From: a virus
Length of the DNA: 35,849 bases
IMG/VR virus record: IMGVR_UViG_3300025889_000406
Location: 1 to 35,849 of that record
Strand: one strand, 5' to 3'
Shown: positions 11,648-29,260 of the stretch, in pieces
Layout: each line of letters starts with the position of its first letter
How positions within the stretch are numbered: the first letter of the stretch is position 1
Made by a program: the position numbers and the translations under genes
The notes under the pieces: generated by a model
The model's input: only the letters and a program-made list of their open reading frames with translations
Told to the model about the DNA's origin: nothing
Database searches by the model: none

Positions 11648-12904
11648 ATGCCAATTGATCCAAGAATCGCAATGGGCTTTCAGCCCACAACACAACTTGA
11701 GTCCCCCCTGAACCGGCTTGCCAAGTTTCAGCAGATTCAGAGTGCGCAGCAACAAAATGAGCTTGCTCGGATGCAGGCTCAGGAATATGAGCGCGGCTTG
11801 AAGGAACAGGAAGACTTCAGAAACATGCTGGCTGGTGCTGATGTCAGCACACCAGCAGGCCGATCAAAACTGTTGTCTGCCGGCAAGCCTGGAGTTGAGT
11901 ACGTTAAAGGTCTTGAAGCAGTTGAACAAGGTCGGACAACGCAAGCAAAGAATCAACAGGATCTAATAAAAGCTGCATTTCAGAATTCAGCTTCTGCATT
12001 AGCGCAGGTGAACAGTTTTTCGGATGCAGAAAAATACATCAACAGCATTTACGCCGATCCTGTGATCGGCGATTTCCTGCGCAGCAAAGGTGCAAGCCCT
12101 GAGAGCGCACTGAAAAAGTTGATGAAGATTGCAACGGGGCCAGATCCTGAAGCTCAGTTCAACCAATGGAAATTTGAGAACGCAGCAGGGATTGAAGCTG
12201 CACAAAAGCAATTTGGAACGCAAGTACTTAACACGGCTGGAGGGGTTCTTCAGTACGACCCAAGAACCGGGGCTACAAAAATGATCCCAGGCACAAGCCC
12301 TGCTGATCGTCCAATGACCCAAGCTGAGATTGAAAGAAATGCCATTGCTCGCCAAGGTTTAGCCCTTAAAGCTGCTGCTTCGGAAAACAAGCCTATTGTT
12401 AAACCATTGACAGAAGCGCAGCAAAATAAAGTAAGGGAAAGCGTCGCAAAAGATAGGCAAGTTGTCTCTTCAATAGATGCAAGCGAAAAGACAATGACCT
12501 CCGAAATTGAAAGGTTGCTAAAGCATCCAGGCCTTAAAGGAATTACAGGTTACACAGGTATGTTTCCAACTTTGCCAGCTAGTGAAGCTGGAGCCGCTAA
12601 GAATATTTTGGAAGGAATTCAAGGGAAAATTAAAACCCTTGGTCGCGAGCTTGCCTCACAATCTGGCAAACTTGGCAACATGGCGGTGCAAGAATGGAAG
12701 TTTGTATCTGATGCCGTTGCTGCTCTTGACCCAAGAAGTAAAGATTTCACGAATCAGCTAAATTTGGTTCGAGAAGCAATGAAAGGTTTAAAAGATAGAA
12801 GTCGCGCGAAGTTTGAAGAGACTTACCCTGATCTTGCTGTTGACAATGCTCCTGCAAAGCAGGGAGCACCGAACATTGATGATTTACTGAACAAGTACAA
12901 ATAA
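11648..12904 (+). CDS. Internal virion/ejection protein, helical, 418 aa
   Basis: A long, mostly helical and Gln/Ala/Lys/Glu-rich protein. The N-terminal 55 residues have QQIQSAQQQNELARMQAQEYERG, a coiled coil that probably mediates assembly. There are no catalytic motifs or membrane segments. The centre holds repeated amphipathic helices (ESVAKDRQVVSSIDASEKTM). It sits between the gp7-like and gp16-like proteins, and all three are likely ejected with the DNA as in P22. I judged this by position and composition only; it could also be an inner core protein. The gene starts shortly after a TAA and ends 2 nt before the next ATG. Confidence 0.65.
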   Translation: MPIDPRIAMGFQPTTQLESPLNRLAKFQQIQSAQQQNELARMQAQEYERGLKEQEDFRNMLAGADVSTPAGRSKLLSAGKPGVEYVKGLEAVEQGRTTQAKNQQDLIKAAFQNSASALAQVNSFSDAEKYINSIYADPVIGDFLRSKGASPESALKKLMKIATGPDPEAQFNQWKFENAAGIEAAQKQFGTQVLNTAGGVLQYDPRTGATKMIPGTSPADRPMTQAEIERNAIARQGLALKAAASENKPIVKPLTEAQQNKVRESVAKDRQVVSSIDASEKTMTSEIERLLKHPGLKGITGYTGMFPTLPASEAGAAKNILEGIQGKIKTLGRELASQSGKLGNMAVQEWKFVSDAVAALDPRSKDFTNQLNLVREAMKGLKDRSRAKFEETYPDLAVDNAPAKQGAPNIDDLLNKYK

Positions 12905-21312: not shown

Positions 21313-21337
21313 GCCCCTCTTGCGAGGGGCTTTTTTT
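21313..21337 (+). terminator. Rho-independent terminator facing the plus direction
   Basis: GCCCCTC (21313-21319), loop TTGC and GAGGGGC (21324-21330) form a perfect 7-bp stem followed by seven T (21331-21337). This is a textbook intrinsic terminator, but only for rightward transcription, which is antisense to the operon here. On the operon's mRNA the same hairpin has A-tract before it and no U-run, and could shield the Cas4-like gene's leader. Confidence 0.75.
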
Positions 21338-23355: not shown

Positions 23356-23682
23356 CTTTTTTATTTTTACAACCATTGCAGCGGCTTTTACTATTGCCCT
23401 CCGGGTTGCGGCGTGTGCGTTGTCTACCTCTGCCCCCGTAAGGTTGCCCCACAACACACTCGTCTTTCTAGTCTCGTTTGCTGGCTCACAATCCCATACA
23501 ACAACCATTTGTTCGCCGTGAATTACTTCAATAAGGAAACCCAGCTTCACTGCTAGCCGCAGCGCGTCGCCGTCGTCTAAAAGAGGGTTCCATGCTTTTG
23601 GGTAATACTCGTCTTCATCTAGTCGATGAACGCCCAACCCAACCGCCTTAGCGGCTAATTCCAAAAGTTTACGGTCAGTCAT
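23335..23682 (-). CDS. Small phage protein, 115 aa, cassette gene
   Basis: Starts MTDRKLLELAAKAVGL and contains W-N-P-L-L-D-D-G-D-A-L-R-L-A-V-K-L, a pattern known from short phage accessory proteins. The middle is beta-rich (FLIEVIHGEQMVVVWDC), and a basic helix leads to K-I-G-G-N-V. Its final six residues and stop/start are the same as those of the upstream Sak4-like gene because of a 21-nt repeat. No active site is visible. It looks like a moron-like cassette whose loss or gain would leave the operon undisturbed. Confidence 0.75.
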   Translation of the reverse strand: MTDRKLLELAAKAVGLGVHRLDEDEYYPKAWNPLLDDGDALRLAVKLGFLIEVIHGEQMVVVWDCEPANETRKTSVLWGNLTGAEVDNAHAATRRAIVKAAAMVVKIKKKIGGNV

Positions 23683-23699
23683 ACATTCCCCCCAATCTT
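23679..23699 (-). repeat. 21-nt direct repeat at gene junction (copy 2)
   Basis: Second copy of the repeat at 23335-23355, covering the end of the Sak4-like gene and the start of the cassette gene. Identity is complete over 21 nt. The equal reading frame at both copies means a crossover would be seamless. Confidence 0.9.
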
Positions 23700-24356
23700 T
23701 GCAATCACAGCCCCCAGATCAGGGCTTTCCCACATATCAAGGCGGCCCGACCGATCCTTAGCTAACCAGACCCCATCCCCGTCGCACATCAAAGCTCGCT
23801 GAGTGTTACCGTCGGCGTCTTTTTCGACACGCAGGGCCAAAACTTCATCAAAAAAGTAAGGCAAAGCCTGGCCGGTTTTGTTACCCGGCATTGAAGGGCT
23901 GTACATCATCTTTGCAAGCTCGTCCTGGCTTTTCTCCAGCTTCGCGCTCATGTAAACGTGTCGCCCAGGCAGATCACGAAAAGCTCGAATGACATCGGCC
24001 ATTTGCTCCTGCATAGACCCGTAAGCTGCGCGGGGGTCTTTGTTGTGTTTCTTCTCGTAATTAAGAACCACCTCGGCGATTTCGCTGATTGAGTCAATGG
24101 CTACGGACTGAAAGCCTTTGGCCTCATCAGATTTTGTAAGCCATTCGTAAGCCTCACGCAGAGCATCCATTGAGCTTATTTCGATGAAGGGCACGTCGGC
24201 CCCGGCGATAGAAAGAAGGCCACCCTCGGCCGATAGGACTACGGGATTGGGCAGGGTAGGAATGAGGGAAGTTTTTCCTGCTCCCGCAGCGCCGTAGACA
24301 AGGAGCTTGACCCCGGAGGCGGCCAGTTGGCCGGTGGTTTTAAGATTGATTGCCAT
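23679..24356 (-). CDS. Sak4-like RecA-fold ATPase (single-strand annealing)
   Basis: 225 aa. Walker A GAAGAGKTS (22-30, Lys28) and Walker B-like Q-S-V-A-I-D-S-I (Asp88) are plain; EQMADVIRAFRDL and MSAKLEKSQDEL follow, as in phage nucleotide-binding (AAA_24) and Sak4 proteins. These are short RecA-like cores that anneal or pair DNA together with a single-strand binder such as DUF669. It lies in a cluster with DUF669, a Cas4-like nuclease, helicase and VRR-NUC, which backs a recombination role. The start has no strong SD and follows the Pro-rich peptide gene directly. Confidence 0.88.
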   Translation of the reverse strand: MAINLKTTGQLAASGVKLLVYGAAGAGKTSLIPTLPNPVVLSAEGGLLSIAGADVPFIEISSMDALREAYEWLTKSDEAKGFQSVAIDSISEIAEVVLNYEKKHNKDPRAAYGSMQEQMADVIRAFRDLPGRHVYMSAKLEKSQDELAKMMYSPSMPGNKTGQALPYFFDEVLALRVEKDADGNTQRALMCDGDGVWLAKDRSGRLDMWESPDLGAVIAKIGGNV

Positions 24357-24364
24357 ATTTGCTT

Positions 24365-24472
24365 TCAGAATGGCGCCGGTGGCGCAGGTGGTAGGGGTTC
24401 CTGGCGGAACGGGGTAGCGGGGGGCCTTGGCAAGGCCTCCCCTTTGTAAGTGGGGAAGGGCCAGTTCTTCAT
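24365..24472 (-). CDS. Proline-rich peptide, 35 aa
   Basis: The ATG at 24472 overlaps the upstream gene's stop as ATGA and the frame closes at 24365. The 35-residue peptide begins MKNWPFPTYKGEALPRPP and carries runs such as PLPPAPPAPF; 12 of 35 residues are Pro. Proline-rich peptides can act as ligands for protein-interaction domains or as translation leader peptides. Its place 8 nt before the Sak4-like gene suggests coupling or attenuation. The function is unknown. It exceeds what is expected by chance because the frame is tightly joined at its start. Confidence 0.6.
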   Translation of the reverse strand: MKNWPFPTYKGEALPRPPATPFRQEPLPPAPPAPF

Positions 24473-24747
24473 TTAGAGGTGGTCTTTACAGAGTAAACCG
24501 CCGTCACACTTGTGTGTGATGCAATGACATCTGCACCAATGTTCTGAGCCTTGCAAAGAGCTTTCCAATCGGTGTTAGAACGGTTGGATTCAACGACAGT
24601 AGAACGGAACAACACACCCTCGTGAACTCCGCCAGCCTCGCGCATGGCTTTCTTAATTGCGTCGGCTTGCTTTTCAAGCACATCAATTTCAGCCAGCAAT
24701 TGACCCAGTTGATCGGCTTGGGTCAGGTTCAGGTCGTTGTTTTTCAT
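24469..24747 (-). CDS. First gene of the main leftward operon, 92 aa, coiled coil
   Basis: Starts MKNNDLNLTQADQLGQLLAEID, a helical coiled-coil region that continues to about residue 38 (EKQADAIKKAMREAG). A second part with GVLFRSTVVESNRSNTDWKALCK and SHTSVTAVYSVKT has beta character. SD CCAAGGAACTC is present, and a strong promoter (24804-24832) lies upstream, so it is the first gene of the operon. The family is common in early regions of phages but without known function; a host takeover or nuclease-inhibiting role is possible. Confidence 0.75.
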   Translation of the reverse strand: MKNNDLNLTQADQLGQLLAEIDVLEKQADAIKKAMREAGGVHEGVLFRSTVVESNRSNTDWKALCKAQNIGADVIASHTSVTAVYSVKTTSK

Positions 24748-24803
24748 GATGAGTTCCTTGGTTAGATCGAACCGTCGGCCTATTCCGTTCGTTCGATGTG
24801 TGT

Positions 24804-24834
24804 ACTGTAGGGGGTGTTTGTTAACTTGTCAACA
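24804..24834 (-). promoter_or_regulatory. Leftward early promoter with operator-like dyad
   Basis: On the minus strand TTGACA (complement of 24827-24832) is followed by a 17-nt spacer and TACAGT (complement of 24804-24809): a perfect -35, ideal spacing and a fair -10. The first gene is at 24747. The octamer TGTTGACA (complement of 24827-24834) spans the -35. With the left half it forms TGTTAAC-TT-GTCAACA (24819-24834), a 16-bp near-palindrome. A larger 8-bp dyad (24811-24818 with 24831-24838) covers the spacer. Confidence 0.8.
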
Positions 24835-24845
24835 CCCCGATGCAA

Positions 24846-25031
24846 TTAAAATGCTACATCGTTAACAATGCAATCGATGTAGATTTCGGCCAGCTCCAAG
24901 GCCTCGTCCATGTTCTCGCAGGTGCCGAGTAGACTGTACTTGCTGGGGTAGTCTGAGGACCACACGGTAAAGTAGTCGCCAGTTTCAGAAGCGTACACTT
25001 TGTAGAAGCCTTTGTTGCGAATCAGTTTCAT
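24846..25031 (-). CDS. Small phage protein next to switch, 61 aa
   Basis: A plain 61-residue frame with SD CGGAGATAAAC. MKLIRNKGFYKVYASETGD, then YFTVWSSDYPSKYSLLG and an acidic C-terminal helix (MDEALELAEIYIDCIV) suggest a small beta-alpha fold. It is transcribed from the promoter superimposed on that of the HTH gene. Position beside a control switch suggests an early regulator or anti-repressor-type helper, but no motif is known. It is probably the first protein made from the leftward switch promoter. Confidence 0.7.
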   Translation of the reverse strand: MKLIRNKGFYKVYASETGDYFTVWSSDYPSKYSLLGTCENMDEALELAEIYIDCIVNDVAF

Positions 25032-25076
25032 GTTTATCTCCGGTTAGCTGCTTCGTCGGGGAATCCGTTCAAGCAG

Positions 25077-25115
25077 TGTTGACACTATAACTTTGTGCGG
25101 CGTATGATGTCAACA
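25077..25115. promoter_or_regulatory. Two superimposed divergent promoters with inverted TGTTGACA operators
   Basis: Plus: TTGACA at 25079-25084, 18-nt spacer, TATGAT at 25103-25108. Minus: TTGACA (complement of 25108-25113), 18-nt spacer, TATAGT (complement of 25084-25089). Each -10 touches the other's -35, so RNA polymerase can use only one at a time. TGTTGACA (25077-25084) and its inverse TGTCAACA (25108-25115) form a perfect dyad. Starts would be near 25115 (rightward, HTH gene) and 25077 (leftward, 61-aa gene). Confidence 0.8.
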
Positions 25116-25139
25116 TCCCAACACAACATTTTTAACAAC

Positions 25140-25328
25140 ATGCTCACACTTGAATTGATCCGGGCGCAGCTCCAAGATCGACGGCTTACAGTCATCGCGG
25201 AGCGGACGGGCCTGCATCCCAACACGTTGAGAGACATTCGGAACAATGCCGACTGCAATCCATCACATAGAGTGCTGGCGGCGTTGAGTGACTATTTGGA
25301 AAATAGCGCAAAATTAGTGTTGTCCTGA
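25140..25328 (+). CDS. Small helix-turn-helix regulator, 62 aa
   Basis: I start at the ATG at 25140, since earlier in-frame starts at 25095 (GTG) and 25104 (ATG) fall inside the promoter's -10 region. The helix-turn-helix is VIAERTGLHPNTLRDIRNN (about residues 19-37), with a recognition helix at HPNTLRDI, and RVLAALSDYLE closes the fold. It is like the short repressor/excisionase-sized HTH proteins of phages. It has no dimerisation or protease domain like CI. It could bind TGTTGACA at the overlapping promoters and control its own level; that is inference from location. No SD is visible. Confidence 0.8.
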   Translation: MLTLELIRAQLQDRRLTVIAERTGLHPNTLRDIRNNADCNPSHRVLAALSDYLENSAKLVLS

Positions 25329-25539: not shown

Positions 25540-27432
25540 ATGACGAACCGATCAAAACTTGAAGCGGCTCTTACATATGCGTCTTGGGGCTGGAAAGTTC
25601 TTCCGGTTGTCCCAAACAGCAAAGTTCCCGCAACAGCGCACGGCGTACACGATGCAACGGACGACCCAGATCAGATCCGCGCGTGGTTCACATCAAACCC
25701 AGATCTGAACATCGGGGTAGCGGCAGGCCAAGCTTCCGGTCTTGTTGTATACGACATTGACCCACGCAACGGCGGACAGGACAGTTGGGACGAGTGGACG
25801 GCAAAGCACGGACAGTTGCCCGACGGAATCACAGCTTTAACTGCTGGCGGGGGCTACCACTATCTTGCAGCGTACCAAGATGGGATTAAGTCTTGCAAGC
25901 TTTTGGATGGCGTTGATCTTCTTTCAAATGGGCGCTACTTTGTAGCGTATCCGTCTGAGATTGAGGGCAAAACATATCAATGGGAAGCCTCAAGCGATCC
26001 ATTCGACGGTGTTGGTCCGGTCAGTATTCCTCAGAGTTGGCTTGCATCAATGCTTCCGGCAAAGAAAGAGCGAACAGCTTCAAATGATTCTTCAATCATT
26101 AAAGGCAACCGCAACTCGGGCCTAACCAGTCTTGCTGGGGCTATGCGCTCGTATGGCATGAGCGAATCGGAAATTCTGGCGGCTCTTAGCGTAGCGAATG
26201 AGACCAGGTGCGAAATTCCTTTGCCCAGTTCAGAAATTCGTCAGATTGCCCGGTCAGTCTCTCGATATGAGCCTAACAGCGACGTTGCAAGCTCGGTGGC
26301 GCTCGGTGCGGAAGCGGCCGAATCTTTGCTTGAGAATTTAGCGGCCCCTGCTGGTGACTATTTTCTAACCCGTGGCAGCTCGTTCATTGAGGAACCTTCC
26401 CCCACCAAGTGGATCATCAAAGAATGGTTAGCTGCTCATTGCGTCGCAATGATCTTTGGCCCGTCAGGGGCAGGCAAAAGCTTTATTGCACTAGACATGG
26501 CCTGTTCAATTGCGGCTGGCATTCCTTGGCAAGGCATAAAGACAAAGCCGGGCGTTGTGGTCTATCTCGCTGGCGAAGGCAACTACGGCATTCGCAAGCG
26601 GATTGCCTCGTGGGCAATTGAGCATCAAACCACCCAGCTCGACAACCTTCTCATCAGCAACAGACCCATTGATCTTGACAGCCCAAGAGCGGCGGCAGAT
26701 GTCATCAAGCTTGTCCGTTCAATAACTCAAGAACAGATCAGCCTGTTGATTGTGGACACGGTGAATAACCACATGAGCGGAGACGAAAATGCGGCAAGGG
26801 ATGTCCGGGCCATGGTCAATTCGTGCAGCACAGCAGCCTCAGCTTTGGGCGCCACAACAGTGTTTGTTCACCACACGGGGGTGAGCGAGACGGCACAGGG
26901 AAGAGAACGAGGCTCCAGCGCATGGCGAGGCGGCCTTGACTTCTCAATATATGTTTCTCGCACAACGGACAAAACAATCAAGATTGAGGCAAAGAAAGTA
27001 AAGGACGACAAAGAGCCAGAGCCAATATACGGATTGCTTAAACCCGTGGCGCTGGGCTGGAAAGATGAGGACGGAGAAGATATTACCGGTGCGGTTTTTG
27101 CAGTTACGAAAGACTATGAAGTTAAAGAGAAAAGCAAAGAATCAGATTATTCAAGGGATATCAAAAAGTTCATATCGTCTTGGAACGCGGCGGGACACGA
27201 GACAAGGAACGGACAACCGTATTTGTCCCGCAGCGCCCTCGTAGACCACCTAGTAAAGGACGGCTTAAGCCAGGCCACTGCCAACACTTATGCACAACCA
27301 GGGAAGAAGGGGAGGCTGATCAATAACCTCCTTTTGGCCGAAGTTATCGCACCATTTGAGCAAGGCTGGGTCGTCATTGAGCCCGTTACCGCCAGTTCAA
27401 TGATGCTTTTAGGCGGGACGGGCCAGCGTTAG
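25540..27432 (+). CDS. Primase-polymerase/RepA-type helicase fusion
   Basis: 630 aa from the ATG at 25540; the longer 680-aa reading would cross the interlocked inverted repeats. The N-terminal prim-pol (PF09250-like) domain has Y-D-I-D-P-R-N-G-G (Asp72, Asp74) and T-A-G-G-G-Y-H-Y (His107). A primase C-terminal helical module (about 190-242) contains GLTSLAGAMRSYGMSESEIL. The ATPase is RecA/DnaB-like with Walker A GPSGAGKS (307-314) and L-L-I-V-D-T (402-407), then V-F-V-H-H-T-G. Fusions of this type start phage and plasmid replication at an iteron origin. No polymerase gene is visible, so host polymerase is likely used. Confidence 0.9.
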   Translation: MTNRSKLEAALTYASWGWKVLPVVPNSKVPATAHGVHDATDDPDQIRAWFTSNPDLNIGVAAGQASGLVVYDIDPRNGGQDSWDEWTAKHGQLPDGITALTAGGGYHYLAAYQDGIKSCKLLDGVDLLSNGRYFVAYPSEIEGKTYQWEASSDPFDGVGPVSIPQSWLASMLPAKKERTASNDSSIIKGNRNSGLTSLAGAMRSYGMSESEILAALSVANETRCEIPLPSSEIRQIARSVSRYEPNSDVASSVALGAEAAESLLENLAAPAGDYFLTRGSSFIEEPSPTKWIIKEWLAAHCVAMIFGPSGAGKSFIALDMACSIAAGIPWQGIKTKPGVVVYLAGEGNYGIRKRIASWAIEHQTTQLDNLLISNRPIDLDSPRAAADVIKLVRSITQEQISLLIVDTVNNHMSGDENAARDVRAMVNSCSTAASALGATTVFVHHTGVSETAQGRERGSSAWRGGLDFSIYVSRTTDKTIKIEAKKVKDDKEPEPIYGLLKPVALGWKDEDGEDITGAVFAVTKDYEVKEKSKESDYSRDIKKFISSWNAAGHETRNGQPYLSRSALVDHLVKDGLSQATANTYAQPGKKGRLINNLLLAEVIAPFEQGWVVIEPVTASSMMLLGGTGQR

Positions 27433-28897: not shown

Positions 28898-29119
28898 TCA
28901 GATGCTGCCGATTGTTTCAACAAGTTCACGTTCAATGCCGAAGTACCCAGCTTTCTTTGGATCGTCCCGGTAAATTTCGGCCATCCGCCACCCTTCGGCG
29001 ATTGCCAGAGCTGCTGCTTTTTTTGCGGCGCCCAATGTTTTATAGGAGTCGTAAAACTTTGTGAATGGGTAACCGGGAAAGCCGTAGAGCTTCATTGCGT
29101 AATAGCGGGTTGCCTGCAT
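28898..29119 (-). CDS. Small phage protein, 73 aa, unknown
   Basis: I start at MQATRYYAMKLYGFPGYPF (29119) because AGGAG is 7 nt upstream; a frame to 29161 is SD-less. The conserved-looking YYAMKLYGFPGYPFTKF, a Lys/Ala-rich helix (TLGAAKKAAALAIAEG) and YFGIERELVE suggest a compact alpha/beta fold, possibly nucleic acid binding. It is recurrent in short phage gene sets but unnamed. A palindromic site and direct repeats lie in the 291-nt stretch upstream and may control it. Confidence 0.65.
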   Translation of the reverse strand: MQATRYYAMKLYGFPGYPFTKFYDSYKTLGAAKKAAALAIAEGWRMAEIYRDDPKKAGYFGIERELVETIGSI

Positions 29120-29191
29120 GTTTCTATCTCCTGTTAGGTTGCTGCGCTGTCTGTCAGTCATGTCGCGCAGTGATGTAAATGTACACCAGAT

Positions 29192-29209
29192 CTAGTGTCT
29201 GGACACTAG
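29192..29209. promoter_or_regulatory. 18-bp operator-like palindrome CTAGTGTC-TG-GACACTAG
   Basis: Perfect 8-bp arms around TG, typical of a dimeric repressor site. It overlaps a second inverted repeat (CCAGA...TCTGG) and is flanked by two direct GATGTAAAT copies 50 nt apart (29172-29180 and 29222-29230). It is 73 nt upstream of the ATG at 29119 and could be its operator. It differs from the TGTTGACA sites near 25100. Confidence 0.65.
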
Positions 29210-29260
29210 GGAAAACACTGGGATGTAAATTTATTGATAGCGTAGCGCGCCCACCACGCC

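Follow-up and report, generated by a model that had tools for sequence, protein, structure and literature searches.

In the early region of the virus record analysed here (35,849 bp, hereafter the window), two near-consensus promoters on opposite strands are superimposed on one another, and each of the three leftward early promoters recognised in the window leads into a hairpin of 29-32 nt. Here it is proposed, with a probability of about 0.5, that a shared early promoter site, repression by a small HTH protein and protection of the early mRNAs by a 5' hairpin act together as one explanation of this arrangement. Promoter overlap of nearly this kind has already been described (Pr/Pc of pLS20, PMC4207663), and the RNA element, which the initial annotation of this DNA missed, is the part worth following. 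It matters more than the promoter pair, as a well-supported structured RNA that is absent from Rfam and tied to the predicted first transcribed base.

Overlapping early promoters

The record encodes P22-type portal, coat and head-closure genes. To the left of the promoter pair lie, in order, the genes for a 61-aa protein, a 92-aa protein, Sak4, an SSB-like protein, a Cas4-type exonuclease, a methyltransferase and a helicase, and to the right lie the 62-aa HTH gene and a primase-helicase. The features of this region are as follows:

23679..24356, minus strand: Sak4-like ssDNA annealing protein of the leftward early operon (profile scan)
24469..24747, minus strand: 92-aa protein, 3' of hairpin 2 (ORF list, PHROG scan)
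24804..24832, minus strand: second leftward promoter PL2, TTGACA-17-TACAGT, with no rightward promoter over it
24846..25031, minus strand: 61-aa protein, first gene of the PL1 transcript, without Pfam or PHROG match
25077-25084 (+) and 25108-25115 (-): inverted pair of TGTTGACA octamers, exact matches, 31 bp apart (about three helical turns)
25079..25108, plus strand: rightward promoter PR, TTGACA (25079-25084)-18-TATGAT (25103-25108), 11/12, predicted start 25115
25084..25113, minus strand: leftward promoter PL1, TTGACA (25113-25108)-18-TATAGT (25089-25084), 11/12, predicted start 25077
25140..25328, plus strand: 62-aa Cro/CI-type HTH regulator, first gene of the PR transcript (PHROG 18104, E 2e-9)
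25540..27432, plus strand: primase-polymerase/helicase, 630 aa (profile scan)

Promoters were scored as matches out of 12 to the sigma-70 hexamers, and starts were predicted by the usual 7-nt rule. The initial annotation had described TTGACA -35 boxes with near-consensus -10 boxes at 18-nt spacing on both strands, each -10 touching the opposing -35, and an inverted pair of octamers; all of this was recovered, with both promoters at 11/12, one base in common between each -10 and the opposing -35 (25084 and 25108) and exact octamers. PR and PL1 together span 35 bp (25079-25113), and their predicted starts are 38 bp apart. Among 300 first-order Markov sequences of the window's length and composition, promoters of at least 11/12 occurred at a mean of 0.25 per sequence. 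None of the sequences contained two overlapping promoters on opposite strands, even when the threshold was lowered to at least 10/12.

Relatives of the HTH protein are encoded at 42 IMG/VR loci, and about 40 metagenomic relatives retain both promoters. Among 26 distinct close relatives, the mean column identity of the four hexamers is 0.90-1.00, compared with 0.70 for the 13-bp spacer. Distant relatives, at 47-54% protein identity, retain the layout too, with some of their hexamers weaker. Among 117 distinct regions that carry the hairpin, the rightward -10 lies in fixed register over the leftward -35 at most PL1-type loci, but not at PL2. The rightward promoter of many distant relatives scores only 7-9/12, which is the chance range for a free search, while the register is still fixed. 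By eye, the same overlapping layout is present in the Sak4/HTH intergenic region of the cultured Alteromonas phage PB15 and Idiomarinaceae phage 1N2-2, and is less clear in Salicola phage CGphi29. The conservation of the hexamers above the spacer, together with the layout and register retained in relatives, indicates by sequence comparison that the promoter pair is real and under selection.

A close precedent is the Bacillus plasmid pLS20, in which Pr has been proposed to have its -10 and -35 boxes at the same positions as the -35 and -10 boxes of Pc, and in which these overlapping divergent promoters act in a switch (PMC4207663). The phage pair resembles Pr/Pc in having boxes placed on opposing boxes and a regulator encoded in one arm; however, its boxes adjoin with a one-base overlap, whereas those of pLS20 are proposed to be exactly coincident. 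Furthermore, Pr is a weak promoter that depends on RcoLS20, together with a second operator and DNA looping, whereas both phage promoters are near consensus. No second operator was identified for the phage pair, in which only the inverted TGTTGACA pair is visible.

The HTH regulator and a proposed sharing of initiation

The 62-aa HTH protein matches HTH_3/HTH_26 of Pfam weakly, under the cut-off, and its AF2 model is an all-helical domain (pLDDT 91) with weak Foldseek matches to SinR, AcrIIA15 and P22 c2, all of the XRE/Cro type. It is the only local regulator found, in agreement with the initial annotation, which had noted no CI-like repressor; neither an integrase nor a CI-like repressor was present among the approximately 40 ORFs scanned against PHROG and Pfam, a set that leaves out small or spurious ORFs. 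The leader of the HTH gene (25116-25139) is A/T-rich and conserved (CAACACAACATTTTTAACAACATG), and because it has no clear Shine-Dalgarno sequence, translation of the regulator may be weak or follow an unusual route.

Two more exact copies of TGTTGACA are found, at 24827-24834(-) in PL2 and at 12838(+). The inverted pair, placed in the -35 regions of PR and PL1, is a candidate operator of the HTH protein, in a role that is inseparable from that of an extended -35. In PL2, an inverted repeat, GGGGTGTT...AACACCCC (24808-24835), covers the -35 and the spacer and is kept in close relatives; separate from the PL1/PR pair, it is another candidate operator.

A small HTH gene divergent from other early genes is also the plan of lambda-type CI/Cro regions. 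The phage region differs from CI/Cro in its fully overlapping promoters and in the lack of a CI-like repressor or integrase among the scanned ORFs. The layout is not unique, given Pr/Pc of pLS20 (PMC4207663). The CTGC-type hairpin pattern described below had no matches in a collection of bacterial and archaeal genomes, and the primase profile detected in the same collection one close relative only, on a contig of 3.1 kb that had been binned into a Thermomonas MAG. The absence of an integrase or CI-like gene among the scanned ORFs, and of close relatives from bacterial chromosomes, fits a virulent lifestyle for this freshwater, P22-structured phage.

In the bidirectional promoters of E. coli, which have a common -10 and starts separated mostly by 10, 18 or 23 bp, two polymerases are sterically barred from simultaneous binding; exclusion there is negligible at weak basal promoters and matters only with frequent initiation, and strengthening one direction represses the opposite one (PMC12825309). 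The phage pair falls outside this definition, with each -10 over the opposing -35 and predicted starts at a distance of 38 bp. Because of the repression seen when one direction is strengthened, the near-consensus phage promoters should compete, and real competition at strong promoters is what the E. coli study predicts (PMC12825309). Occupancy by one polymerase at a time, as claimed in the initial annotation, follows from the geometry and has this steric precedent (PMC12825309), and steric exclusion of polymerase at the pair in vivo is plausible. The pair is a clean natural case of reciprocal overlap under selection, suited to exclusion tests at strong promoters.

Under the explanation proposed here, a host RNA polymerase of the sigma-70 type would use the one 35-bp site in two orientations, with PL1 leading to recombination and small early genes and PR to the HTH regulator and the primase-helicase. 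Since each -10 lies on the opposing -35, one polymerase would exclude the other, so that initiation would be shared between the two early arms. The HTH protein would probably bind the TGTTGACA pair and repress itself and PL1 while accumulating. The initial annotation had instead read the site as a switch, and a compact switch of this sort, with its two states governed by the HTH protein, would make use of the overlap geometry, the inverted TGTTGACA pair and the one HTH gene, and has a parallel in the overlapping divergent promoters of pLS20 (PMC4207663). It is nevertheless improbable, as early lytic functions are on both arms, no integrase or CI-like gene was found in the scan and close relatives are absent from bacterial chromosomes; a choice between alternative fates has no support, given two early lytic arms that would be needed in the same infection.

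The leftward start-site hairpin

The three hairpins, and the ORF that follows the third, are as follows:

24766..24797, minus strand: hairpin 2, at +1 of the PL2 transcript, AUCGAAC GAA CGG AAUAGG CCG ACG GUUCGAU
25048..25076, minus strand: hairpin 1, 29 nt, at +2 of the PL1 transcript, CUGCUU GAA CGG AUUCC CCG ACG AAGCAG
28898..29119, minus strand: 73-aa ORF, 3' of hairpin 3, with ATG at 29119 and a GGAG ribosome site
29142..29170, minus strand: hairpin 3, variant loop, CUGCGC GACA UG ACUGA CA GACA GCGCAG

Hairpin 1 folds at -11.5 kcal/mol (z -3.5), and the leader is unstructured after this single hairpin. Hairpin 3 follows the conserved TACATTTACATCA, which comprises the -10 and start of the third leftward promoter, and belongs to a type for which ten distinct sequences have the same plan, several of them with the inner UG/CA changed to CG/CG. 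All matches to the hairpin model in the window are on the minus strand, at 25078-25046 (47.1 bits), 24798-24765 (38.4 bits) and 29172-29140 (19.9 bits, E 0.008). The mean folding energy of the leftward leaders is -11.2 kcal/mol, compared with -0.3 kcal/mol for the rightward leaders, which are unstructured.

The stems differ among relatives (CUGCAC/GUGCAG, UCGCAC/GUGCGA, AUCGAAC/GUUCGAU, CACCAC/GUGGUG, UACCGC/GCGGUA and UCACU/AGUGA). In 46 distinct hairpin sequences, a set that like the 117 regions demanded at least five pairs and hence favours paired examples, 99.0% of cells are paired, compared with 77.5% in shuffles, and 90 cells have changed on both sides, compared with 22 ± 6 in shuffles. 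The covariation is 0.644, against 0.207 in shuffled sequences and at most 0.096 for slid structures; the six outer pairs all covary, whereas one of the inner three covaries and two are invariant, and the internal loop has six invariant positions and is A-rich. In a recount free of this bias, in which sites were anchored on the promoter, a four-base core and the ribosome site, with no stem requirement, at least 8 of 9 Watson-Crick pairs were present in 109 of the 138 sites and 2-6 in the rest, a clean bimodal split. Read on the transcript strand, G-T pairs (21) exceed A-C pairs (8). Across these alignments the base pairing of the hairpin is conserved, and the stem sequence is not.

The placement of the hairpin is equally regular. 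It starts 7-8 nt past the -10 in 108 of the 117 regions, that is, with the stem at the predicted +1/+2, and a leftward promoter of at least 9/12 precedes it in 94 of them, compared with 3.8% of shuffles. The base preceding CUGC-type stems is A in more than 90% of cases, as expected for +1. A ribosome site and start codon are found downstream in 132 of 135 hairpins, mostly 15-19 nt past the stem, and the proteins encoded 3' of the hairpins form about 29 clusters that lack BLAST similarity to one another, an upper estimate because some single-member clusters are cut off at contig ends or possibly spurious. The largest are Sak4 (38), the 61-aa family (24) and the 92-aa family (19). The hairpin model had no match in the portal-sharing Rhodoferax phage P26218, DSL-LC05, EBPR podovirus 1 and MW202483, and so the hairpin follows the early module and not the capsid. 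The model also had no match in PB15, 1N2-2 and CGphi29, where similar hairpins are seen near +1 by eye. In the Thermomonas MAG phage contig, positions 1180-1320 hold, beside a relative of the primase, a promoter region with GTGTTGACA, and near its leftward start is a simple hairpin (TCGCC GGGGTTC GGCGA) without a match to the model. Two further model matches in relatives (L118:9811 and L192:8675) were set aside as unclear or due to chance.

Neither the promoter region nor the whole window had a match in Rfam, and a literature search, with limited coverage of subscription journals, gave no description of the element. When the promoter-hairpin region was compared with known phages by BLAST, the only matches were short and at chance level, besides the self-match to MW202867.

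Possible functions of the hairpin

Structure at the 5' end stabilises mRNA, because the action of both RppH and RNase E depends on a single-stranded 5' end (PMC3997798), and that paper cites stabilising 5'-terminal stem-loops of E. coli mRNAs, papA among them. The placement of the phage hairpin fits protection, given this need for single-stranded 5' ends: as in stem-loops of the papA type, a stem at the 5' end, with transcripts beginning at the predicted starts, would leave few unpaired nucleotides. Most likely, this portable 5'-terminal hairpin, leaving almost no unpaired 5' nucleotides, would protect the early transcripts from decay by RppH and RNase E. However, unlike the papA type, it belongs to a conserved family in which the internal-loop bases are fixed and which recurs ahead of unrelated phage genes. 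Since protection alone leaves the conserved internal-loop bases unexplained, recognition by a protein or by the polymerase is suggested, and the A-rich internal loop is a possible protein-recognition feature. It is put forward tentatively that the hairpin represents a new class of phage RNA: about 30 nt long, it would tag leftward early transcripts at their start site, be read by the polymerase or a phage protein and be inherited as a promoter-hairpin-ribosome-site cassette before unrelated genes in a large group of virulent aquatic phages. If the hairpin protects or marks early mRNA, it would be a simple part spread by phages among their early genes, and would ease the finding of early genes of unknown function in metagenomes.

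The put RNA of phage HK022 is about 70 nt long with two stem-loops, and putL lies just downstream of PL (PMC9378689). The phage hairpin is likewise a structured RNA directly 3' of a leftward early promoter, at the very start of early transcripts as putL is just past PL (PMC9378689), and its conserved internal loop and its occurrence before unrelated genes would also suit an antitermination or polymerase-modifying RNA, of the HK022 put or nut/boxB kind, that lets the leftward polymerase read through terminators. Such a role is possible, and less likely than 5'-end protection: a single hairpin of 29 nt compares poorly with about 70 nt and two stem-loops, two of the copies are merely 280 nt apart, each before one small gene, and the third transcript heads to a strong terminator-like site (28328-28309). 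There is no hairpin on the rightward transcript, whereas HK022 has a second copy, putR, there. By comparison with lambda nut (boxA and boxB), no boxA-like sequence was seen by eye in the PL1 leader.

The hairpin may otherwise be a site for a phage or host RNA-binding protein controlling early-gene translation, with a logic like that of coat proteins or RegA. The conserved internal loop and the ribosome site that soon follows the stem in nearly all cases agree with this, but it is unlikely, as the position is tied to the transcription start and not to the ribosome site only, and no candidate protein was identified. CsrA/RsmA binding was dropped, as GGA is changed to AGA in about half of the hairpin sequences, and so was a loop-to-ribosome-site pseudoknot, judged by eye, as the loop sequences vary (ATTGG, ATAGC and others). 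That the hairpin acts at the DNA level, for instance in single-strand initiation by the adjacent primase, is very improbable. The primase gene is nearby and the pairing could form in single-stranded DNA, but the copies keep a fixed position relative to a promoter and have a ribosome site and start codon after them, the excess of G-T over A-C pairs is on the transcript strand, and the third copy is 4 kb off, in another transcript.

Some further elements were observed in the window. The third leftward promoter has a weak -35 here, which is TTGACA in two relatives (L133 and L192), and directly upstream of it is a palindrome, CTAGTGTCCAGACACTAG (29190-29215), possibly an activator or repressor site. 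The strong minus-strand terminator-like hairpin downstream of this promoter, AAAGGCCCCTAAGGGCCTTTTTTT, would end the third leftward transcript. A strong plus-strand terminator-like hairpin, GCCCCTCTTGCGAGGGGC followed by TTTTTTT (21313-21330), lies within the leftward operon, in the opposite direction.
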